38,648 nt of DNA, taken from assembly GCA_029717555.1 (NCBI GenBank), contig JAMDHS010000133.1, forward strand, positions 1 through 38,648, given 5' to 3'. Made by a program: the position numbers and the translations under genes. The notes beneath the pieces are model-generated. The model did no database searches, was not told where the DNA came from, and saw only the letters and a list, made by a program, of their open reading frames with translations. This document shows positions 4,166 to 38,648 of this stretch, in pieces (the first letter of the stretch is position 1; every line of letters begins with the position of its first letter). The DNA is from Peribolospora baueri (taxonomy: Eukaryota > Basidiomycota > Peribolosporomycetes > Peribolosporales > Peribolosporaceae).

Positions 4166-4289
4166 AGGGATCTTACGGAACGGGAGACAACTCCCTTATC
4201 GCAACAGATTATGAAACCGGCGATGCGCTCATCGACGGCGTCGAATCCCTCAACATCCGCGTCAACTTTTCTTCACTCTCCTCGTCCTC

Positions 4290-5090
4290 GTTAAATGAGC
4301 AATCTGTCGCCCAACCCACTTGATATTAACCCTCCACGTACTCGCACAGCGCCTGCTGTCACGCCTGCTGTCAGTCCACCTGCGGACCTGCACCAGGCAT
4401 GTCCGAGACGCTTGTCAGTGACGTAATCCTCATATCTCATGCTATGCGACAGGTCGACAAGGTCACTGTCACAAACCTCCGCTCAGAACCTCGTGCTCAT
4501 AGGCTCGGACAAAGGAGCTGTGACGTTGCGAGGTTAGAACATAGGAGCTACGGTGCTGCACCGGTTCATGAACGTGTATATAAAGAGAGCCCGACAGGGC
4601 GTCCGCATCTTTCCTCCCCAAGCTAAGAATATTCAGTGACCGGTACAACCTTTTGCTTCAGGCCAAGACCCAGCCTCAGCCCCTCCTAGTCATCGACGGG
4701 CGACCGATCAGCTCCGGGCCCGTCACCCATTACGTCGAGACCGGGCTACGCATTAGTTCCCATCGGGAGACCCTCCTTTTTGATGTCACCCGTCTCGCCC
4801 ATTATCCCATCGTTTTGGGGATCCCCTGGTTGCGTCGCCATAACCTTTCATCGACTGGCGGCGCGACAAGCTCCAGTTCACCTCCAGTCATTGCGTCCAA
4901 TCCTGCGTCGAGGATCCTCCAGCCGTTTCAGCCGTGCCTCTTGTTCCAGCAGCTCCCCAGTCTACAGAATGTCCCAGCACCGAGGTCGTCCAGGTCACCA
5001 TCCAGCCCAGCCCCGTTCAGTCCAGTCCAGCCCGGCCCAGCCCTATCCAGTCCAACCCAATTCCACTGAGTCCAGTTCCCAGCCAAGAGG
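4290..5090 (+). mobile_element. broken Ty3/Gypsy-type LTR retrotransposon remnant (gag start and protease pieces)
   Basis: A fossil. A gag-like beginning (MSNLSPNPLDINPPRTRT) starts near 4295. From about 4650 a second piece resembles the retropepsin C-terminal part of Gypsy polyproteins, with the family-typical VLGIPWLRRHN near 4812-4846. A proline/serine/glutamine-rich, CCAGC-repeat linker follows. No reverse transcriptase or integrase piece is recognisable. An LTR-like repeat sits between the two pieces. The element is heavily broken, with at least three breaks and most of pol missing. The age looks old, but no LTR pair is available to date it. Confidence 0.7.
4467..4640 (+). repeat. LTR-like dispersed repeat, copy 1
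   Basis: About 170 bp beginning TGTCACAAACC and ending shortly after CTAAGAATA closely match a second copy at 26231-26400. Both carry the block GTGTATATAAAGAGAGCCC, a TATA-box context followed by a conserved stretch, as expected for the promoter part of a short LTR. This copy lies inside the Gypsy remnant, between its gag-like and protease-like pieces. It may be a solo LTR or a small non-autonomous element; its exact ends are uncertain. Confidence 0.65.
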
Positions 5091-9661: not shown

Positions 9662-12600
9662 TCATCTACAGATGTCCGAACGGAACCATCGTCGGGCAGC
9701 GGCGAACAAGGCGGGAGAACGGAGGATGGAGTAATGCGACACGTCGTCCACCACTTCGACCTGACAAGACGGCAAGGTAGCCGCGAGTAGCCGAGCCTCT
9801 GCCTCCCCGCCGTTAAAGCTGCGCGACGCCAGGACGAGGAGGACCGGCGACGAGACTCGGAGCAAAGACAGCACCACATCCCTATCACCCTCGTGAGCCG
9901 CATCAAGGACGAAAGAGGACAGGGCCCGCATGTGCGACCGGAATCGAGAGGCCCACGCCTTGGCTACCGGTAGCGAGACACCGTCGGCGGTCAGAGCGGA
10001 GGCCAGCGCTCCAGCGGAGACATCATCGAAGAACGGCGGCGGGTGGCCGTCGCCACCGCCCTTCCCCGCCTCAGAAGCCTCTGCGCGCATCGCTTCGAGG
10101 ACCGGCTGACCCAGCGCAAGCAGGTCGCCGTCGCGCGCCCGTCGCGCACCGTCTAGGAACGAGGGGCTAGCCAGATAGATCGGCGACTGATCCACGAGCA
10201 GCAGCCGACACTCTCGTCCCTCGGCCTCGAGTAACCTCGCCACTCTCAAAGCGACGATGGCGCCGAAGGAAAAGCCGGCGAGCAGGTACGGTCCACGAGA
10301 TTGCCGTCTCACCAGCTCTGACCGGCTCGCTTCGGCCAGTGCATCCAAACTCTCGCACTCCTCTTCCGCCTTCGACACCACGACGGCACCGCCGAGAGCA
10401 GAGGCGAGGGCGGACAGTTGGTGCGTGCCCCCGCCGGCCCCGGGAAAGAGGAACACTCTCGTGGCACCGCCCCCTTGATCCTCCGACTGCTCGTCCCCAA
10501 CCGCCGTGGCGCGCCCCTGCTCCACGTCGTACTTCTCTCTCAGCGACTTCAGAGTGGTGGAAAAGAGGACCTGCATCTGCGGCACCTCCATACCCAGCTC
10601 TCTGCGCAACTCGGTGCTCAGCCGCACGCCTGTGAGCGAGTCCAGGCCGTAGTTGGCCAAAGCCAGATCTGGCTCGAGCTTGGACGGGTCAACGTCGAGG
10701 ACACGTGCGACGATCGCGTCCGTCGGCGGCATGTCTTCAAGCTCGTCCTTAGACCCAGAGCGCTTCCGGCCGTCGACCAGATGGCCCATCGTCCGGGACC
10801 GGGCTGACTCTGCCACCGTCTTGATGTCCACGTGCGGGACGTAGACGCCGACCTTTCCGTTCCGCAGGAGCAGCAGCGCTTGCTCGACATGTTGCAGGTA
10901 GTCTTCAGCTTTGACGCCCCACTTTTGACCGAGCTGCAGCGCCGCCTTGGTTCCGACGTCGTCGAGCGTGCGTCGGTAAATGCCGCCGTCGAGCAGCGGC
11001 ACGACCGCCATGGCCACGGCGTTGGGAAGCGGCGCCAGCAGCTCCTCGAGGCCGGCGTTGGCGATGGTGTACGTAGCCTGGCCTGCAGAGCCCGCGATGG
11101 TGGCCAACGACGAGGCGCCGATCACAAAGTCGAGCGTTTCGGAACGAACTATCGACAGCAATCTACCAAGCGCATCCACCTTGACGCCCCACGGCACGTC
11201 AAAGTCGTTCTGCGTCCGCGTCGTGATCATGCCGTCCGTCAACTGGACTGGAAGGTACACCAGACCGGCCAGACGCCGCGTCCTCATCAGATCATGCACG
11301 AGGGCGCCTGACTTTTCAGCGTCCGCCGCGTCCACGGCGGCGATTCGGAGCTCGACGCCGGCCCGACTCTCGATGTGCTCGATAATGCCCCGTTCGCGGT
11401 GCCACCCGGGACGATCGAGGGTGTCGCGCCCCGAACGCGAGGTCAGACAGATGTGTCGAGCGCCTCGGTCGACGAACCAGCGGGCCATGCGGACGCCCAG
11501 CCCTCCGCACCCGCCTACGATCAGATACCAAGCCTCTGCATCGAGCTGCAGGCTGTCTGGCGCCACGCCAACGGCTCGACAGGTAGACGAGACGGCAAAA
11601 GGCGTATCGGACGGGTGGGCTTCGATAAGTTCGGAAGCCGGAATGGCGAAACCGTCGTCATCGGGAGTGTCTCCGGGCGGCCCGTGCGCAAGAATCTCCT
11701 TCAAGCCTCGGAGCACCCTCCTTATGCGCGGATGCAGCAGCTCGATGTCGCGACTGAGTTCTACCGCTTCGACGCCGGGGAAGCGCTGGGAACCGAACAT
11801 GACCGCTACCTTTGATGTGGGCCGGGCCGTGTACGCTTCCGGCAGAGCTGAGGTGGCGACCAGCAGGTCGAACCGGCGAGAGCGCAGATGCCAGAGACGA
11901 CGGAGGACTTGTTCAGGTCCGCCACAGCAGGGCTCGTCGATCACCGTCACCACGTCGATGTCCAGTGCCGAGGCGGCCGAGGCGAAAGCGTCTGCCATGA
12001 CGCGGCCGCCGACGAACAAGACCGACGACGGAGGGTCCAGCACTGAAAAGCCGGAGGCGTCGATAGCATACAGAGCGAACACGAGGCCGAGCAGATAGCG
12101 TTGGCCGGTGACGGCACCGGCTTCAACGCGGACGATGAGGTCTTCATTCAGCGCGACTTTGCTGGCCAAAAGGGGCGAAAAGCCGATCAAGGTCGCTCCC
12201 TGCCCGCTCTGCCCGTGCACGAGGCAGGCACCGGAGGAGATAAAGATGCCGCCATCGACGGTGACCGCGACCTTGCCCGGATCGAGAGCGGGCGCGTACG
12301 CAGCTTCGAGCTTGATGGCGTCCGCTCCGGTGTCTGAGCGCGAGTTGACCAGTCGCCATTCTGGCAGCGGGGACATCTTCTCAGCAGCGTGCTCCGGCCG
12401 CAGCAAGCGAACCAAGCGACAGACCTGCATAGTGCCGTCACCCACGAAACGAACCTCAACCTCGTGGTCAGGCACCGACGCGACTCGCTTTAGCAGGTCC
12501 TCACGAGCCGGCTGTGTCAAGACAGAATCGAACAAGACGACCCGGACCCCAATGTCGAGGTCCACTCGGAGAGAACGACCGAAGGCCAGGGCGCCCGCCG

Positions 12601-15600
12601 AGTCACCACACACTGTCAATTGGGCGTCCGGGTTCTGTGCCAGCTCAGTCAGCTCGGCGACCAACTTGGCCTCCTGACCTCGTTGGTGCCAGAGAACGCG
12701 GGACGTGCGATCGTCGCCGCCGTACCTCCCATTGGCGCCGTCTACGGGATCAGTCCAAGCTGGGTCGAGACGCGCCTCAAAGACCATACGGCGGAGATGG
12801 GTGCCGGCCTCGTCTCGCATGCCGACAAAGCGGTCGAAACCGTGCCGTTGAAAGTGGGACTGCCACTGTTCGCAGGTCTGAAGGGGGTGGGAACGCGAAT
12901 CCGCGAAGCCCCACCAATCTTTAAGAGTGCCGAACAGAAAATTGAGGAAGGCGGTGCCGGGTGCCCGGGCGCGCTCGAGCCCGCCATCCGCCTCAACGAC
13001 GAGGACAAACCCGCCGGGAACGAGGAGAGACCGCGTGGCCGAGATGGCCGCGTCGAGATTCTTGGCGACATGCATCGTGTCGGCCATGACGACGATGTCG
13101 AACGACCGCGGCAGCACGCCCGACTGAGGCCTGTCGGCGTTGAGATCGAACAGCGCCGTCGACACGCCGCCGTGCTCGATCGTTTCTGCCGCGGTGCGGG
13201 CGAGGTGGGCGGACACGTCCGTGATCACCCACTCCATTTCCAGGTCTGGCTGCTCCACGAGGACTTCTGACCATGCGCGAGAGAGTAGCCGTGTGAGTTG
13301 ACCAGTGCCCGCCCCGAGTTCGGCCACCTTGATAGCACGCTTGCCGGCCGCGGCGAGGAAGCGGACGGTCTGGGCGAAGAGGTTGGCGGCGTTGTGGAAG
13401 GACTGGTCTGCGCTGGCCTCGGACTTGTAGTAGTGGGTCATGACGTCGTCGCGGAAGAGCGCCTCGACGGCCGCTCGGTCATCGATCAAGACCTTGTTCC
13501 AGATGCTCTCGAGCCTACGGGCGATCTCGTAGTGATGTGGATGACGGTCTTTCAACGGCGCGAGCTGCGCCAGAGACGAACCCTGCTTATCCACGGAAAC
13601 CCGTTGGGCCAACGAGGACAGCCAGGCGTAGTGCCTCTTACGGTCGATGAGGTCGCTCGGCTGGGATCCAGAGGAGATGATCCGACGAGCCATGGCGGAG
13701 GCCCATGCGTCCAGGGCTTTGTAAGTCGGGAGCATCGAGTCCACGGGCATCGGAGCTCGTGCGGATATCGCGGCCCGCTCGAGGTCGAAGGGTCCGACGT
13801 TGGCCCACGGCTGCCAAATCTCGGTGATGGCGCCAACGTGGGGGTTGGCCGCGTTGGAGAGACGCTGAAGCCTGAAGCCGTCCACAGTGAAGAGGACTAC
13901 ACCGCGGAGGTCAGTGGCGACCACGTTGAACTCCATGCGATCGGGCTCGAGCAGCGTACGGGTGACGTGGGACAAGAAGGACGGCTCGGAAGGCCGCCCG
14001 TACAGGCGGACGCGCCTGGCAAAAGAGGGCAGGAAATAGTCGAGCATGTACCCTCCTAGATCGGAGCAATAAGGGAAGACCAGCGCGGCGGCGGCTTGCC
14101 AAGCGGCGTCGAGGATGGCGGGATGAAGGCGGTACGACCCATAGCGATCGAGATCACCCACGTTGCCGCGGACAACGCCGAGGGCCTCCGAGTAATCCTC
14201 CCGGAAATGGGCCACCTCCACGCGACAGAACTTTGCGCCAAAATCGAACCACTTGCCAAACTTGCTGGTCGTTTGGCCGAACCCGTAGAACTCGTCCCGT
14301 TCGACCCGCAACGGGCAACGGGAGCGGACGGTTTCGAGGTCGACGGGAGGCGGTCTAGCTGAAGGCGCTCCGCCGACTAGAGTGCCGTCTGCGACGAGGC
14401 GGTCGAACGTGACGTTACCCTATGGGAAAAAGCAACGCCAAGAAGGAAGTCAGGCGGGCGCCAACAAAGAAGGAAAAGACCATGCCGGGCTCGGCTCACC
14501 ATTCGCGTCGCTTCGTCCATGCCATCCCGCTTGGCGAGCTCGGTCGAGGTCCGCACCGTGTAGGTCGGCCCGTCGCGCACGACTTGGACGGTCATCGCAA
14601 TGTCCTTGGGCGTACTCAGCGCGCTGTAGAAATTAGCGTTCTGGATCTCTTGTACACCAAACTCAAAGCCCATCTCGACCAGCGCTGAAGCGGGCACGAT
14701 GGCCTGGCCATCGATGATGTGGTCCGCGAGGTCGGGATGGGTCATCTGCGAGAGCCGGAGGCGAGGATGACAGAGTGGCTTCCACGCCTCTACGTGCTTG
14801 GAAAGGTAGCCCGGGCCTTGAAGTATTCTACGCGCTTTGCGGTATGGATAGGCGACGACCGAGCGGCCGAAGGTAGGCGGGGACGCCGGGCACGGGTCCC
14901 GCATGATCAGGTCGAAGTGCACATCATCGACACCCTCCATCCAAAGGTCTCCAATGGCCTGGAGCAATGCCACTCCTTCCGCCTTGGCGCACTCGTCGGC
15001 GTCGCGCCAGTCGGCCGCTCTCCGAGAGACGGTGCACACGTGTGCCGTCCCTAGCGTCTGTGCGACGTACGGCGCGAGGGCGGGGTGGGCGGACAGCTCG
15101 ACAAAGACCGTCGATCCGGGACCCGCGCGGCTGGCGACGGTCTGGATGGCGTCCGAGAACAGGACCGGCTTTCTAGCGTTGTCCCACATGTCGTCCGGCG
15201 TTGCGAACGAGCCCGACGGAACGAATCGGCCCGTGACGGTCGAAACGAACGGCTTTCGATGGACGGCCTTGCGCTCGGACAAGCCCTCGAAGACGGCATG
15301 GACGCCGGACACGTAAGTCTCGCGACACCGGTCCACGAGCTTCGAGTGAATGGGTGTGCGGGTGCGCAGCAGGCCCGCGGAGTAGCCCCCAGCTTTGGCC
15401 TCGTCGACAAACGCAGAGAGAGGAGCTGCAGCACCAGAGACGAGATAGGCGTCCGGGCCGTTGAATCCGGCGATCTCCAACTCTTGCTGGCCCTCGAGGA
15501 GCGGCAGGAGCTGAGCCAGGGGAGCGTGGAAGTAGGCCATGGAGCCGGAGCCTTCGATCTCTTTGAAAGCTCGGCCACGGGCCACGGCGAGCCGGACGAC

Positions 15601-18245
15601 CGTCTCGCGCGAGCAAGCGCCGGTGGCGTAGAGCAAAGCAGTCTCTCCGGCGCTGTGGCCGACGAGAAGATCCGGTCTGATGCCGAACGAGACGAGGAGG
15701 TCGAAGAGGGCCATCTGAAGCACGGCGATGGCGGCGAGGGTAACGTCGATCGACCAAGCAAATGTGTCCGCCGCTGCTCCCGGCGATGGGGTCGCGAAGA
15801 GTCCATAGTCTCGGACGAGGGAGACGCCCATCTCCTCGCTGTAAGCGGCGTCGCCTCGCAAAACCGCTTCGCGAAAGACATCGTACTTGGCGAATAGGCA
15901 TCTTCCCATGCTGCAGGAGCAGAAGGAAGGAGAGAGAGTCAGCTTCTGCATTAGCAAGGGTGAAGGCGGCGCAAGCGACTCACTGGAAATGCTGAGGTCC
16001 CTGACCGGAAAAGAGAAAGACAATCGTCGGAGTGACGTCCGGCCGCGCCCTGGGCTCGGCGAAGCGGAGGTTCTGCCTTTGAGCGTCAAATCCGGTGGCG
16101 AAAGAGCGGAACGGCATGGCGCGAGCGGTTCGAGCCATGGCCAAGAGGGGGACGTCTTCGGAGGTCTCTTTCCACTCGTCTGCGATCGCCAGGAGACTCC
16201 GGTGCGTCAACGCACCGACGCAGAACAGGCTTGGCGTCCGCGAGGAGGACATGCGGCGCACACATCCCGCGCCGTTACCGTTCGCGAGCAGGGCACGATG
16301 TGCGCTAGGAGCGGCTTCGAGCACGACGTGGGCGTTTGCCCCACCGAAGCCGCTGCTGGCGACCGAGACGAGCGGCAGTGGCTTGCCTGCCGTATCGACC
16401 TCGGCAACCTCAGTGCAGACGCGAAGATCGTACTTTGCCCAATCGACGGCCGAGGTCGGAGTGGCAAAGTTGATGTTGGGGAGGAGCTGTCGGGAGGAGA
16501 GAACGTAGCACATCTTGACAATGGAGACGAGGCCCGCCGCCAGCTCGGTGTGTCTACGGAAGGCCGAGTTGGTCAGTTGCGGGGCGAGGCACGCGTGGTG
16601 GTGTCACGGAGGAACTCACCCCACGTTGGACTTGACCGAGCCGACCGACAGCGGTCGTCGCCGTCGGTGCTTCTGGAAAGCGAGCTCGCCGATCGCCGCG
16701 AGTTCTGCAAACGGGGAAGATGAGCAGGTGATGTGGAGGATCAGTCGACACATCAGATCTGCTTACCTGTGCTATCGCCCACCTTGGTGCCGGTACCGTG
16801 AAGCTCGACGAAATCAACGTCTTCGAGGTCACGCGCGGCCGCTCGGTAAGCTCGTGTGATGACGTCTTGCTGAGCGGGACGGCTCGGGGAGACAATGGAT
16901 AGCCCGCGGCCGTTCGAGTTGATGGCCGAGCCGAGGATCTGCAGGGCCGATGAGAAGGAAGGAAGAAGCGAATTGAAAGGAAGACAATGGAACGGAATTG
17001 GGGGTGGAGGCTCACGTTGGCGTAGATGCGGTCGCCGTCAGCGACCGCCTTTGAGTATGGTTTAAGGATGAGCGCTACGGCTGCCTCGGACCGCACGTAA
17101 CTGGAGTGAAGGACCGCGGTCGCAGGAGGGAGGTATGAGATGAGCGAAGAGGCCTCTCAAGAAGAACCGGGAGCGTTACTTGCCCGTCTGCGGCTTGATC
17201 AAACGGGGAACAGGTGCTGGTTGGAGAAAGGACGCCGAGCTTGGAGAAGCCGATCCAAGACTCGAGACTGCGAGGGACACGCGAGAAGGGAGACGGGCGG
17301 TGAGGTTAGACAGAGAGGATGATCGAGCTTCTTTGAACAGTCAACCGGGACAGCGGACACCGCACCCACTCTCCGATCCAGTTGGCGGCGGCGACGACGG
17401 CCTGGCAGCACTCCCCTGCAAGGAGGCCGCGGACGGCCAGATGAAGGCCGACCAGGCCCGCGGAGCAGGCGGTATCGACGGGGAAGCTGGGGCCTTTGAG
17501 ATCGAATATGAAGGAGATACGGTTAGCGAGCATGGTCGATGCGATGCCGGATTCGTAGTACTCGTCCGCGGCGTAGAGGGCGTCGTCCCAATTCTCTGCC
17601 CCCGCCGGCGGGTTGGCGGCGCCGACATAAACGCCGGTGTCGGAGCCACGGTAGTCGACGCCGGCGTCGCGGAGTGCGTCGAAAACGGTGGAGATGAGGA
17701 GGAACTGGACGGGCGTCATCTTCTGGAACTCGCGCGCGTTGATGCCAAACTCGGTGTGGTCGAACTCTTCCGTGCCGGAGAGAAAGCCGCCGGAGTCGGG
17801 CAGGACCTGTCCTTGGCCCTTTCCGTGCCACCTGTGTTCATGCGGTGGAAGAAGAAGAGGAGGACGGACGAGCGGGGTAGGCGAGAGGTTGGGGAGGGGT
17901 GGGGGAGGGGCGTCACATGCGTCAGTGCACGGACTCGTGGCCAGTGGCCGTTCAGACGAAGGAAGCTGCTCACGCATCGATGTTGAACCGTTCCTTCGGG
18001 ATCCGGGTGATTGACGACCCTGGTGACGCCGACCGAGAGGAGAACACCGTGAGACAGAGCACGACGCTCCCGAAGGGGGGAGAGGGCCTGGAGCTGGCCG
18101 GTGCCTGCTCACCTTTGTTCCTCAGGAATTGCTCAAAGCTGACCTTGTCGAGGTTGGGGCCGTTGCCGCCGTCGGGCAGATGGCAGGCGAGGCCGACGAT
18201 CGAGATGGCCTCCTTGCCAGCATAGCTGAGGTCGTCCAGAGACAT
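9662..18245 (-). CDS. type I reducing polyketide synthase, KS-AT-DH-MT-(ER-like region)-KR-ACP-TE
   Basis: An iterative multidomain synthase of about 2,500 residues in roughly ten exons. The KS has all three catalytic sites: DTACSAG (Cys codon 17467-17465), HGTGT near 16790, and KSNVGH split by an intron, followed by GFGGANAH. The AT has GHSAGE at about 15660. The DH has ADHIIDGQAIVP (HxxxGxxxxP, about 14725) and the second-site Asp in HPAILDAAWQ. The C-methyltransferase has VAELGAGTGQLT (about 13320). The stretch from about 12600 to 11570 lies where an ER would be, but shows no NADPH-binding glycine motif. The KR has VGGCGGLG and the SSLATIAGSAGQATY active-site region. The ACP has YGLDSLTG (Ser near 10640), and the TE has GFSFG (about 10268) with downstream Asp and SHY histidine. 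The last exon, 14419-9662, is 4.76 kb without an intron, whereas all nine or so introns lie in the 5' 3.8 kb. The start ATG at 18245 directly precedes the KS, as in reducing PKSs. Confidence 0.93.
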
Positions 18246-33299: not shown

Positions 33300-34800
33300 A
33301 GGTCGGCTGCCAGAGGATTGTGACGAGCTCGCTTTCGTCCCTCTCTCTCCCCCCCACCTTCCTTTCCATTCATCATTTTGTACGGCCAAAAAAAGTCCGT
33401 TCAGTCCGAGACATTCCTACATTTCTCGTCCACTCCTTTCCCTTCTTGTTTCCCGCGTCGGACCGACTGGATGTCGGTGGTCGGGTCGACCTGCGGCTGA
33501 CCTTCTTAGGTACTATCCGTAGCTGGAGTTAATCGATTTTGGGCTCTTTAACTTTATGGAAATGAAAAGGGTTTCGCACATGCAAAGGTTATTGATACAA
33601 TCTTGCATTTGACGCAGTAACAGAATGGAATATCGTCGAGGACGCCCGCGATCTTTTCGTTTAACGGCCGAAGACAAGGGCGATGACGGCTGAGGGGCGG
33701 CCCATCGCGTGAGTGGCGGCGGCCGAGTATATATATATATATGTATATATATGTCGCCCATCGCACCTTTGAAAAAAAAAGTCGTAGGGAGTATTTGACG
33801 AGTAGATCCGGAGCGACTAGTCGTATACCCCCGGGAATGGCCGCAGGCGCGCAAGTCGACAGCAGAGGATAGGAAAGATATGGACGGCAGTTTACGAGGA
33901 GCGGTCGTCGACGACGTCGTCATCGGGCAAGAGCGGGAGAGATGTACGGAGGGACGGGTCGCAACGTGAAGCACTACCCCGCTATCCCACCTCGTCCACG
34001 CCCGTCTTTCCATCCGTAAATGCAACCTTTACTTACCGGCTGGAACCGCCTAATTTTATCGCTTCGATCGGATATTTAACTAGGACTGGGGACAGGGGCC
34101 CGGAGCTGGGGCTAGGCTCTGAACATCTACCCTAGGAGCTAGGAACTAACATCTCCCTCGGTGTCGATCGACGACGGGTTATTATATGCGTACAGAGAGG
34201 GGAGACGAGCTCGAACGAAGGAAGAACGGATGACGAGGGAGCCAAAGAACCGAAAAGGGAAGTGATGCGGGCCAGGGGATTGGCGATGGGACGAGGCGAC
34301 TAGGAAACAGGTAAGAAAGAGACATGAGGAACGGCTGACGACCATCCACCGCGATGTTTACTTGGATGGGTGGTCTATGCGGAGTTGAGACGGTACGACG
34401 GAAGAGAGGCACAGTCCGTGGTGGTATGGACGTTACCACGGTTCGTGTTCAAAACCTTTTACAACCCCATCTGGGATGGAGTCGATTTGCGTCCCGTCTG
34501 GGACCTTTACCTCTCCCAATGGGTTGATCTCGGGTTCGTCCCTCAGGGCACTCGGATCATCAATTGTAAAAGGAAGACACGTAGCCTCGGTGACCTTTTG
34601 AACGCGTCAAACAAGAGATCTATCCAGGGAGAGTCGCGTTAAACGCGTGCAGTTGGATTACGACCCTAATCCTAATGAACTAGGCACGCGACCTACCGCA
34701 GGTACGTCACCTGACCAATCAGGTGACACGGCTCCCGCGTCTATCCCGACGTGACGTGACCCGATATTTCCACGATGAAATTTTTTCGCGACCGCCACAA
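33300..34800. other. gene-poor subtelomeric stretch
   Basis: Contains an AT-rich TATATA tract at 33727-33752 and an unrecognised plus-strand open frame at 34370-34642 (PRFVFKTFYNPIWDGVDL) that looks somewhat protein-like but lacks context. There is also a two-unit C-strand telomere-like motif CCCTAATCCTAAT at 34664-34676 and a perfect palindrome at 34706-34727. No confident gene. Confidence 0.45.
34706..34727. repeat. perfect 9-bp inverted repeat around CCAA
   Basis: GTCACCTGA and TCAGGTGAC are exact reverse complements separated by CCAA, so the centre reads CCAAT. It lies about 75 bp upstream of the ribozyme candidate and 280 bp upstream of the Penelope-like open frame. It may be an E-box/CCAAT-type protein-binding site or mark the 5' edge of the element. 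Confidence 0.6.
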
Positions 34801-34876
34801 GGGAGAGAGCTGATCGTTGCTACCTGACGAGCCCTCGGGCGAAACAGCAAAAGCTTTCTGTCACAGCTTGCTCTTT
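34801..34876 (+). ncRNA. candidate hammerhead ribozyme of a Penelope-like element
   Basis: All core parts of a type I hammerhead occur in order. CTGACGA at 34824-34830 matches the CUGANGA box. A stem II of GCCC/GGGC with a two-base loop at 34831-34840 has the preferred G10.1-C11.1 pair. GAAA follows at 34841-34844. Stem III is formed by ACAG (34844-34847) and CTGT (34858-34861), and the predicted cleavage triplet GTC ends at 34862. An outer helix for stem I can form between 34801-34812 and 34864-34875 (AGCTG with CAGCT plus purine/pyrimidine pairs), but the bases next to the core (C·A, A·C) do not pair, so stem I is imperfect. Hammerheads are known in the terminal repeats of Penelope-like elements, and this lies 110 bp before such an open frame on the same strand. 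Confidence 0.6.
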
Positions 34877-34987
34877 CTTCTCGACGGCTTGGTTTTTTGG
34901 TCCAGCTACTTCATGGCCACCCCCAAGTTGACATCCAAAAGCCAACCCCCAGCCCTCTCCCACCCCTTTCCACCCCTCCGGTGAAAA

Positions 34988-37175
34988 ATGACCCACCCCA
35001 CCCCCGCCACCCAACGCCGCAATAAACGTCTCGCAGTCGACCCCTTAAGGGAGGAAGACCTGGTGAACAGCCTAGCTGTATCCCAGTTAGAGACACCCCT
35101 CTCCTTCCTTGAAACCTACAAGGAGCACGTTGCTGTCTACACCAGCAACGCGTCGAGGGCCTTTCGCGCAGAGGCTGGCGTGGCCGAGCTGGAAACAGCA
35201 AAAGCCACTGGGGTTTACCCCCCAGCGATCGCCAACGCAGTCAAACTGCCTCCTTTTCAAGTTTCAGACTTTGCTCGAGCCCAAATAAGGGAAGACATCG
35301 TTACTGGAACCTCTGAAAGACATCGTTACTGGAACCTCTGAAATGGAGCAAGCGGCTCAGACTTGCCAAACTGCTCTTCTCAACCAACTCATTTGGGTCA
35401 GACAAAGGGAGCTCGAGCTCCTCACTCGTCTCCAAAAGGAAGAGAGAGTAGTACCGCAGAGTAGTACCGCAGCTGGCCCGTAGCCTTCGCGAGAAAGCGG
35501 CCTCCTTAACCGCTATGGCTAAAGTTCTCCCAGGCGTCTATGAACCCCATATCAGGACTCTCTGCGGGCGCTTCCGTAGCTCTCTAGATCAAATCCGCGT
35601 GAACTCCGCTTCCCGAGTCTCAGCGGCCTCTGATCGCAAAAAAGAGAAAAAGGAGGCCTTCCTACGCAGTCAACATGATGCTATCAATACTCATGACTCA
35701 ACGACTGTACAGGAAATGGTCAACGAGGCAGTGGAGAGGCGACTGCGCAGCAGTACCCTCCCTACCCCAGGACCTTCTAGAGCCACTACTAGTCGGCCAT
35801 CACTGCGTGTACCCAAACCCTCAGGACCTTCTAGGTTATCCAGGGACAAAAGGGACACAACAAAGCAGCAGAAGAAGAGCTCCTACGGCCAACGCGCCAA
35901 GAAGAAACGGCAGGACCCTAAAAAGTCATCCTCTTGGTATGTAGGCCCTCACTTTAACGTGAGAAAAATGGCTACATATCCTGACATCTTCTTTCGCGCT
36001 ACCCCCGCAGAACGCGCAAAGTTCGTATACCGGCAGTCGTCCCCTCTGTTTATTGACACCTTGTCAAAAACAATGAGGTACACAACATTGCCGGTAAACC
36101 TCTGTCACTCCAGGTCAAACGGACCCTAACCTTCAATATGAAGTTTATTCCGAAACCTAGAATGTCAGATAGCGAATGGACAACCTCTATTGAGGATTTC
36201 GAACGACGCGCTCGCTGGAGATGGTTTTTCCGTGATAAACCAGATCTTGAACCCTTCGTCCCAAGGCTCCACATTCCCAGCTAGACCCCCGCTCTTAAAC
36301 AAAGTCACCGTTTTGAGCACAGCCTCGCTGTTGGTCGTTCTGCGTTAATGACAGCGATTCACACCGCTGCCAGGAATCGTCCTCCGACGGCCCCAAACGT
36401 CGGTAAAAGGACTTGGACTGCCCTTCGTGAATTCCTATCAGATGAAGACACCTAGTGCTCCCCACTGATAAGAATCTCGGAATGGCCATCGTCTCCAAGA
36501 CATGGTACTTCAGCGAAGCGCAAAGGCAACTGAGCGATCGGTCCGTGTATGCCATCGCAAACCCTAACCCAAGGGCTTGGCAAGCTACCCTCCGACGCCT
36601 CACAGAGCTTTACCGGTCTTCCCTTTCCTCCCGAGAAAGGAAGTGGTTACTCTCCTCCGAGGACCTCTTGACCGGAAATGATCTACGCCTCCCGCAGTTC
36701 AAGCTGATTCCCAAGATCCATAAAAATCCCATCGCCGGACGCCCCATCGTCCCCAGATTTGACGCCTTTTGGTCAAGGGCATCTACATGGATCGACTATA
36801 AGCTGCAACCGCTTCTGCCGAGCTACCCCTGGATCCTCCGCGATTCCAAGGAATTTGTTAAAGGGATCATAAAGCTATCCGGACAAATTTCGCCGACACA
36901 GCGGCTCTGCCTTGTATCTGGCGACGTTGAAGCAATATATCCCTCCATTCCCCCGGAAGGGTTGCGAACACTACGCTCCGTCATCTCCAAGTCTAGGTAC
37001 GATCAAGGCATAAAGGATCTCATCCTTTCCTTGCTCACCCAAGTCCTCTGGAACAACTACTTCACTTCCTCTGGGGTCACCTACAAGCATCCGAGGAACA
37101 GCCATGGGGACGAGCTGCGCACCAGCGTACGCTAATCTCTTCATGGCTTGGCACGAGCAACAGCTCACCTCGGAG
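34988..37175 (+). mobile_element. Penelope-like retroelement reverse transcriptase relic
   Basis: A retroelement relic with a long N-terminal region beginning MTHPTPATQRRNKRLAVD, a basic Lys/Arg-rich part near 35840-35930, then the reverse transcriptase. RT signatures typical of Penelope-like elements include KFIPKPRMSDSEW near 36140, LPTDKNLGMAIV near 36460, FKLIPKIHKNPIAGRPIV near 36700-36755, SGDVEAIYPSIP near 36918-36953 and the motif AMGTSCAPAYANLFMAW near 37103-37155. The catalytic YxDD block and the rest of the C-terminus are missing, so whether it carried a GIY-YIG endonuclease cannot be judged. The element is broken at several points and truncated at its 3' end. It contains small internal tandem duplications. 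Endonuclease-lacking Penelope-like elements (Coprina type) are known to sit at basidiomycete telomeres, which fits its position 1.4 kb from the chromosome end. Confidence 0.8.
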
Positions 37176-37179
37176 TGAA

Positions 37180-37734
37180 AATGGGAGGAGATGATCTGTG
37201 CCTTCTAGCGATCGAGAGGCCGACTTCGGGCTCAAGTTCATCCTGGAGAGTGTGCATCGACGAGTTCGAGGAGAGGGACGGTCTGCTTTTTGCGAAGCGC
37301 TTCCGAAACATTGAGGCACACGAGAAGGGGGAGGTCCGGACGACGACCGGACTGTCTTGCCGCACTGTCTGGCCGAAGAGATCTCCCGCAAAGAGGCCGA
37401 CTACGCGGCGCGGACCAGCCCCTTGCTGATCGACGTCGTGCTTCCGCGCTTCATGGAACGGGACGAGTGGATCCAACTCAGCCACCAGCAAGGCTACGAC
37501 GTGGACTCGCACCGGGTGTGGAACAATGCCCAGTCTTTCCAGCGCGTCTCCAAGCCGGTCGAACTGGCAAACGGTGGGGAGGACATGGCCTTCTACCATT
37601 ATGGCTCCGACAACGAATATCGCAAGCTGCTGACAGCCGTTCGTGGTGATACTCGTCTCAACAGTCTCGCTTACGTCGGCGCGGCGGTGCAGTGGGTTGC
37701 ACGCACCCGCAGAATGTCGAATCGAACATGATCT
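37180..37734 (+). pseudogene. unrecognised coding fragment between the retroelement and the last gene
   Basis: An open frame without an ATG covers about 37320-37731 and has protein-like composition (AEEISRKEADYAARTSPL, YHYGSDNEYRKLLTAV, AYVGAAVQWVARTRR). Further upstream the same strand shows DREADFGLKFILESVHRR, ended by a stop before the main open stretch. It abuts the truncated retroelement, so its 5' part was probably lost or displaced. I recognise no family, and no splice sites restore an intact start. Confidence 0.4.
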
Positions 37735-38006: not shown

Positions 38007-38648
38007 ATGCCCACGCAGCAGACGCCACACAAGCTCTTCATCCAGATGTCTGGTGCACCAGGTTCTGGGAAGAGCACGATAGCAAGACTTCTCGGACGCT
38101 CGATCGGCGGAGTGGTCATCGATCATGACGTCCTCCGATCCAGTCTTCTCGATTCCAACATTTCGTTCGACCAGGCGGCAAAACATTCTTACCAGCTTCA
38201 ATGGACGCTAGCCCAAGATGTCATGAAGCAAGGCCACAGCGTCATCATCGACAGCACCTGCAACTTCCCGGAGGTTCTTGACCAAGGGTCCGCATGTGCC
38301 AAACAACACGGCCACGCCTATTGGTATGTCGAGTGCAAGGTCCAAGACGTCGACCTGCTGGACCAACGGCTGCGCACTCGAGCTCCGATGACGAGCCAGC
38401 GAACTGGTGTCGACTGTCCTCCTGCTGCTGCTGCAGCACGTGGCGCTCGTGACGGCGAAGACTCTCGCGCTCTCTTCAAGAAGTGGATTGAGCACCCGTG
38501 CCGTCCAGAGGACAACGTTGTGATGGTTAGGGTTAGGGTTAGGGTTAGGGTTAGGGTTAGGGTTAGGGTTAGGGTTAGGGTTAGGGTTAGGGTTAGGGTT
38601 AGGGTTAGGGTTAGGGTTAGGGTTAGGGTTAGGGTTAGGGTTAGGGTT
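38007..38648 (+). CDS. P-loop kinase-like protein (AAA_33 type) truncated by the telomere
   Basis: The ATG at 38007 starts a single open frame. The N-terminus has a Walker A loop, SGAPGSGKST (residues 15-24), then IDHDVLRSSL, SVIIDSTCNFPEV (a Walker B/lid-like region typical of small ATP-binding kinases) and the basic lid RLRTRAPMTSQRTGVD. Proteins of this class phosphorylate small molecules or nucleic-acid ends; the substrate here is unknown. The gene-derived part is 173 codons and ends in EDNVVM at 38525. There the telomeric repeat begins, and the frame reads GTT-AGG, so it continues as Val-Arg repeats for 41 codons with no stop to the end of the window. The natural C-terminus is lost. The break is at the repeat border, consistent with telomere healing of a chromosome break. 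Confidence 0.85.
   Translation, partial: MPTQQTPHKLFIQMSGAPGSGKSTIARLLGRSIGGVVIDHDVLRSSLLDSNISFDQAAKHSYQLQWTLAQDVMKQGHSVIIDSTCNFPEVLDQGSACAKQHGHAYWYVECKVQDVDLLDQRLRTRAPMTSQRTGVDCPPAAAAARGARDGEDSRALFKKWIEHPCRPEDNVVMVRVRVRVRVRVRVRVRVRVRVRVRVRVRVRVRVRVRVRVRV
38526..38648 (+). repeat. terminal telomere, perfect TTAGGG repeats
   Basis: About 20.5 perfect hexamer copies with the G-rich strand running 5' to 3' towards the window end. This is the orientation of a right chromosome end. The sequence stops mid-unit, so the true telomere length is not shown. Confidence 0.97.

Follow-up and report, generated by a model that had tools for sequence, protein, structure and literature searches.

A probably decayed type I hammerhead ribozyme in a telomere-associated, Penelope-like retroelement of a fungus

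The window analyzed here, a stretch of 38,648 nucleotides of Peribolospora baueri DNA, ends in a telomere ((TTAGGG)n at 38525-38648 on the forward strand, located by tandem repeat and pattern searches) and contains the letters of a hammerhead ribozyme core amid pieces of a putative Penelope-like retroelement (PLE). The question raised by this locus is whether these letters represent a functional ribozyme, the remnant of one, or a coincidence, and what such a ribozyme could do for the element that carries it. Our preferred reading, to which we assign a probability of about 0.8, is that the motif represents a decayed type I hammerhead of an endonuclease-deficient, telomere-associated fungal PLE. 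The fold, its conservation, its place in the element, the telomeric tail and the absence of a detectable endonuclease are established at the level of sequence comparison.

All parts of the motif lie on the forward strand. The core letters CTGACGA (34824-34830) and GAAA (34841-34844) and the GTC triplet (34860-34862) were read directly from the DNA and are found in the right order and where an earlier, sequence-only reading had placed them (34824-34862), giving a CUGANGA...GAAA core with an NUH triplet and, as that reading had correctly deduced from the letters, predicted cleavage after 34862. The motif scored 74.7 bits with our own covariance model, of which it is itself a training member. Stem II and its loop (GCC-CTCG-GGC, 34831-34840) comprise only 3 bp and a CUCG loop instead of the four base pairs originally described, since only 2 nt would remain in the loop if a fourth C-G pair formed. 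The four-bp stem III, on the other hand, was found as described: it consists of A15.1-U16.1 and CAG/CTG, with 34844-34847 pairing with 34858-34861 and closing a 10-nt loop (34844-34861 overall).

Stem I is composed of two helices. The inner one, delimited by alignment, is formed by GCTAC (34819-34823) and ACAGC (34863-34867), with three of five pairs present and the two core-proximal pairs mismatched, a defect that the first inspection had already recorded. The outer helix, which that inspection did not list, was found by folding and in the pairing table, and it joins GGGAGAGAGC (34801-34810) to GCTCTTTCTT (34870-34879) by ~9-10 bp across an internal loop of eight nucleotides on the 5' side (34811-34818) and two on the 3' side (34868-34869). 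Internal loops of 8/2, 6/2 and 4/2 were present in the pairing table, and loop II is a candidate partner for this loop. Stems II and III being paired and both the 5' and 3' ends lying in stem I, the layout is that of a type I hammerhead.

The surroundings of the motif identify it as the junction of two head-to-tail copies of the element. The upstream copy A is 5'-truncated; a protein search of the same genome placed residues 285-391 of the reverse transcriptase (RT) encoded on contig C151 at 34430-34751 (+), with the RT stop codon at 34752-34754, and copy A is further supported by DNA matches from 34435 on to C151, C12 and C109 at 82-90%. The downstream copy B is a PLE ORF with frameshifts that runs from an ATG at 34988 to a break point at 37175 (+), with RT residues 7-109 matched by protein search at 36890-37193 and the DNA match to C12 and C151 stopping at 37174/37175. 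Since the C-terminal RT piece of copy A occupies the preceding bases, the ribozyme lies in the 3' UTR of copy A, ~50 nt past its stop codon and ~125 nt ahead of the copy B ORF, and is followed by a decayed remnant of a C-rich telomeric tail (34943-34951, +), recognized by alignment with CCCTAACCCT in C12, C126 and C151. The original description of a motif upstream of a PLE ORF was accurate with respect to the coding strand and the downstream ORF, frameshifted though it is, but the motif is more than a leader of that ORF. A hammerhead serving as the leader of copy B alone was rejected, the RT stop of copy A being just ahead of the motif.

Two other features of the window are recorded here. A P-loop kinase ORF (AAA_33, zeta-toxin-like by Pfam) at 38007-38522 (+) leads directly into the TTAGGG array, and pieces of a highly reducing polyketide synthase (AT, DH, MT, KR, ACP and TE by Pfam) occupy a subtelomeric position at 9665-16089 (-).

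A chance match of hammerhead-like letters was evaluated with a descriptor that called for the core, GAAA and NUH, with 3 bp or more in stem II and 4 bp or more in stem III. It was run over both strands of simulated first-order Markov sequence matching the window in composition and 134 Mb long, the equivalent of six genomes of 22.1 Mb each. Without stem I, the descriptor matched 11 times, so that the core with stems II and III alone is expected ~1.8 times per genome, and a looser pattern matched 18 places in the real genome versus 13 for its reverse; by these counts alone a coincidence would be conceivable. However, five of those 18 places are copies of the element or its relatives (C12, C37, which is the window itself, C98, C106 and C151), and no simulated match was obtained when at least 2 bp of stem I were demanded, whereas three of the nine aligned copies (C151, C109 and C98) satisfy all descriptor rules with a 5-bp stem I. 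The expectation of the sequence-only reading that chance was unlikely is thus upheld by the core conserved in related copies and by the empty simulations, and a chance match, which we consider extremely improbable, is for practical purposes refuted by this conservation.

Library models were less informative. That reading had staked its case on a covariance-model score above threshold or conservation of the core in related copies; no such score was obtained, but the core is conserved. At the Rfam gathering thresholds neither the window nor five sister loci gave a match, the type I hammerhead score was not reached, and a genome search with the type I model yielded nothing at the gathering score among the 73 of 4111 candidates scored; for the one sub-threshold place in that search, on C113, no other support was seen. 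In a lax search of 34700-35000, the sole hammerhead match (13.8 bits) fell under chance matches to unrelated families such as mir-994 (21.1). The intact C151 hammerhead found its best Rfam match in RAGATH-1-hammerhead (RF03152) over the full model length, yet below the cut-off (19.7 versus 56.3 bits), and the best Rfam hammerhead score of C98 was 14.4 bits. Additionally, folding energies were ordinary (z of -1.5 to +1.4 over seven copies), and in C151, C98 and C106A, the better of two hammerheads on C106, the predicted minimum lies 3-5 kcal/mol below the hammerhead fold. Energy alone fails to single out the hammerhead fold.

The comparison with other copies in the genome, which had been recommended as a check, revealed a conserved core and sisters with a full stem I. 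A DNA search with 34741-35100 returned 6 places including itself, and one with the 3' region of C151 returned 11 including itself; six of the latter span the ribozyme core (C151, C12, C109, C37, C1 and C98), C126 holds just the 3' part of the ribozyme, and four stop short of it (C77, C33, a second place on C1, and C117). No rule is broken in the hammerheads of C151 and C98, which are intact. The triplet of C109 is GUA, the stem III loop of C12 is gone, and the core of C1 reads CTGACGG.

These sisters allowed the window's mismatched stem I to be interpreted. Two explanations had been offered for it, decay or an unusual stem I, and the alignment favors the former: a perfect GCTGC/GCAGC stem I is kept by each of the remaining five sequences in the model alignment (C151, C12, C1, C109 and C98), so the unpaired stem I of the window is read as decay by one G-to-A change per side. 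The latter, a natural variant, was ruled out, as the sisters have the pairs. The window copy is thereby probably inactive, the two G-to-A changes beside the core presumably having abolished cleavage. The motif could instead be a ribozyme that is intact and active, its stem I being of an unusual kind, in line with its unaltered core letters and an outer stem I that still spans 9-10 bp; we find this improbable, given that both window changes are from G to A relative to the sisters and neither is compensated. No RIP-type mutation bias was evident in the window copy (21 derived changes in 443 sites).

More diverged hammerheads were reached by several routes, C98 by DNA search, C147 by our covariance model in an RT locus, and C106 by a pattern match in a locus taken for its RT piece. 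The model, R2, was built from six sequences and run over 24 sources (142,688 bases), where it recovered its six training members, C1 twice in overlapping loci. Outside the training set it identified C147 (49.7 bits) and C106 (35.3 and 18.5 bits), together with four further weak matches with E of at least 1. Because it carries GGAA and GUG, the C147 hammerhead is regarded as decayed. When the core and stem II/III rules were applied to eight other sources, they were satisfied by C151, C109, C98 and C106A and failed by C12, C1, C147 and the second C106 copy. Homology and the tail are what link the C98 and C106 hammerheads to the element.

The arrangement of these two loci deserves description. 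At C98 (L029, 1585-1633) an intact hammerhead is accompanied by (AACCCT)3, and no RT was detected in the ~1.5 kb flanking it to the left and right. At C106 (L044, 2190-2444) two hammerhead ends meet 3' to 3', with ~32 bp separating their telomeric bits, an arrangement that resembles an inversion or a short fragment with a cap at either end; C106A, the first of the two, lies on the strand opposite to the C106 RT piece.

When four lineages (C151, C98, C147 and C106A) are compared, identity is 72-84% over the 47-49-nt core and 41-64% over the 57-74-nt tail that follows it, against 42-46% for shuffled tails; some likeness persists between the tails of C151, C98 and C147 (54-64%), and that of C106A stands at 41-52%. 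The diverged C98, C147 and C106 copies retain most of the core with different loops, and GAAA is kept in eight of nine aligned copies, the exception being C147. In both C106 copies a stem II C-G pair is replaced by U-A on both sides. The four pairs of stem III are invariant among the nine copies where both letters are present, the fourth pair being gapped in two. The outer stem I uses different letters in C151 (GAGC/GCUC), C98 (AAGC/GCUU) and C106A (AGGG/CCCU) and is mostly gone in the decayed C147.

In the alignment, which was fitted to the model, 96.2% of cells are paired versus 21-59% for slid structures, and three pairs changed on both sides, a number reached in 2 of 500 shuffles. The number of further pair types hardly exceeded that of shuffled alignments (4 versus 3.5; 225 of 500), and the degraded second C106 copy accounts for some of the both-side changes, those in stem I.

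The element itself is represented here by the C151 protein, which has 391 aa, carries the YIDD form of the YxDD motif, and matches RVT_1 with 32.7 bits; RVT_1 gave no match in the broken window copy. This protein matches 22 pieces of the genome including itself, and on C12 and C151 the order along the element strand is RT, ~550 bp, and then the block corresponding to 34435-34948. The pieces suggest an element of ~3 kb, of which no intact copy was seen and in which no accessory ORFs were noticed. No Pfam match to GIY-YIG was found in the C151 RT, a C12 piece or four window pieces, and the two genome-wide matches fall on C68 and C20, contigs on which the element was not seen. The Penelope-like label is putative and rests on the sequence-only reading, the lack of a detected endonuclease, the telomeric tail, and RT motifs that we take to be of Penelope type. 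Coprina, the clade of endonuclease-deficient fungal PLEs, would be the candidate clade here. The host is identified as a fungus by 26 genome matches to PF04082, a family of fungal transcription factors that gave none in 14 control genomes (prokaryotes as far as named).

Searches for relatives of the RT elsewhere gave nothing significant in the PDB (best E 0.54) and none in viral contigs. In the C61 lineage (RT 47% identical) the locus read contained no hammerhead core letters, and no supported hammerhead was found at the C61, C33, C118, C84 and C77 RT pieces within the loci covered. Other rearranged pieces were also observed. On C12 (L015, 7603-8403, -), a P-loop ORF with LPGSGKTWFGERL continues in one frame into a 5'-truncated PLE copy, and LPGSGKTWFGERL is also encoded near the C98 hammerhead, at the start of L029. 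On C126 (L019, ~4200-4690), the same PLE stretch (window 36010-36206) occurs twice, inverted and close together.

Reverse-complement telomeric tails mark the 3' end of the element in C151, C12, C126, C98, C117, C106, C109 and C147, and in decayed form in the window. The distance from the cleavage site to the C-rich repeat is 79, 75, 79 and 62 nt in C151, C98, C147 and C106A, respectively. In the scheme that we favor, a ribozyme ~50 nt past the RT stop and 62-79 nt ahead of a short C-rich telomeric tail would form a fold that presents this tail, the tail would pair with the G-rich (TTAGGG) 3' overhang of a chromosome and prime reverse transcription, and cleavage would trim tandem or read-through transcripts into units, the ribozyme-tail block preceding the next ORF in tandem copies. 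A difficulty for this cleavage scheme is that cleavage upstream of the tail would strip the tail from its RNA; internal priming on uncleaved tandem RNA would avoid the loss of the tail and fits the insert ends described below.

Four junctions into a PLE ORF could be read, those of the window, C12, C1 and C126. In C12, C1 and C126 the tail joins an identical 5'-UTR start (CGATAAAAGCC) 89-90 nt from the cleavage site, with their 5' regions just 87-89% identical to one another; the window junction is altered. Either common descent from one founder tandem or the fixed unit boundary of a tandem or circular RNA would explain this constant join.

The 5' ends of the inserts were readable in seven copies and lie in or at the ribozyme in three of them, with none at the cleavage site. 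That of C1 falls on the base that opens the inner stem I, give or take ~12 nt, since letters that match as if by chance blur the edge; that of C126 is ~10 nt ahead of the cleavage site; and that of C98, judged by eye, is at about the outer stem, where the real edge might be masked by divergence of the 3' UTR. In the remaining four copies (window copy A, C12, C151 and C109), the cut is inside the ORF.

These ends and joins bear on two further explanations. According to one, the hammerheads would be complete and possibly competent as monomers, and the element would be copied from tandem or circular RNA primed at an internal telomeric tail: the overhang of a chromosome end would anneal to the CCCUAA block that separates the ribozyme from the ORF, with synthesis continuing round to the ribozyme of the preceding unit. 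We regard this as unlikely, and it would nonetheless explain the constant join of tail to 5' UTR in three of four junctions (C12, C1 and C126) as well as the three of seven copies (C1, C126 and C98) whose 5' end falls in or at the ribozyme. The other explanation, a possible one that we hold to be doubtful, sees the ribozyme mainly as a terminal RNA structure that shields or presents the tail and stalls the RT, with cleavage occasional or absent. The C1 and C126 matches that begin in the motif, and C98 at about the outer stem, speak for stalling; however, window copy A, C12, C151 and C109 end inside the ORF instead, the core is kept in lineages with far more diverged tails, and GAAA and NUH would be dispensable if the role were purely structural.

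Our main reading, that of a decayed hammerhead in a telomere-associated element, was also considered against the orientation of the copies at chromosome ends. Terminal addition would leave the 3' end toward the centromere; among the telomere matches listed (of 133), the three contigs with a telomere show the 3' end facing the telomere in the window and C117, and away from it in C109. Simple terminal addition does not give the orientation of the window and C117. The C117 copy (L030, 379-413) is a 35-nt remnant of the 3' end with telomeric repeats, located ~275 bp inside the telomere with its 3' end telomere-facing.

Hammerheads of PLEs are already in print. PMC6155905 states that all available PLE sequences carry them, usually in minimal form without helix III and tertiary interactions, and a similar statement on PLEs and Terminons appears in PMC7761336, which also calls their activity in vivo and their role a mystery. 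According to PMC11167929, reverse transcription by a PLE of Anolis begins internally, RNA that has not been processed is inserted in vitro, and the hammerhead of this PLE needs the protein to cleave. Excerpts of PMC5040776 list five Rfam type III hammerhead annotations in Pleurotus ostreatus without naming, in those excerpts, an element for them. Among the titles listed by searches of mostly non-subscription literature on hammerheads and PLEs, fungi or telomeres, none dealt with a fungal PLE hammerhead, an absence of little weight. Compared with what is usual, the fold described here is fuller. The fungal genome, 22 Mb in size, holds only a few telomere-tailed copies, from about four lineages, and so would be a compact setting for testing cleavage, tail priming and tandem copying with this fuller ribozyme; the case also shows that library models miss such a form.

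Amongst known systems, canonical PLE hammerheads, located in the pLTRs, share with the present one the type I layout, terminal repeats adjoining the ORF, stems I and II, and the core. Whereas they usually lack helix III and tertiary contacts, according to PMC6155905 and PMC7761336, the element here has a 4-bp helix III with a loop and a stem I with an internal loop and an outer helix. Retrozymes are similarly retroelement units bounded by hammerheads, but they are non-autonomous and without coding capacity, and the element here encodes its own RT, the solo C98 unit without a nearby RT notwithstanding.

Endonuclease-deficient PLEs were described in PMC3846280 as priming from exposed chromosome ends, as the only PLEs reported in fungal genomes, and, in fungi, as not sharing the repeat organization of endonuclease-bearing PLEs. 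The element resembles them in its fungal host, the absence of a detected GIY-YIG domain and the link to telomeric repeats, and it differs from the fungal PLEs described there by a ribozyme-tail block both after the RT and before the ORF. The Terminon/Athena elements of bdelloid rotifers differ in other respects, the present element having a fungal host with TTAGGG telomeres, a suggested length of ~3 kb without noticed accessory ORFs, and, in the window and C117, a 3' end toward the telomere. As described in PMC6431247, these elements share with ours a hammerhead followed at the 3' end by short reverse-complement telomeric repeats, which in Terminons pair with the overhang, an RT without an endonuclease domain, and 5'-truncated copies arranged head to tail.
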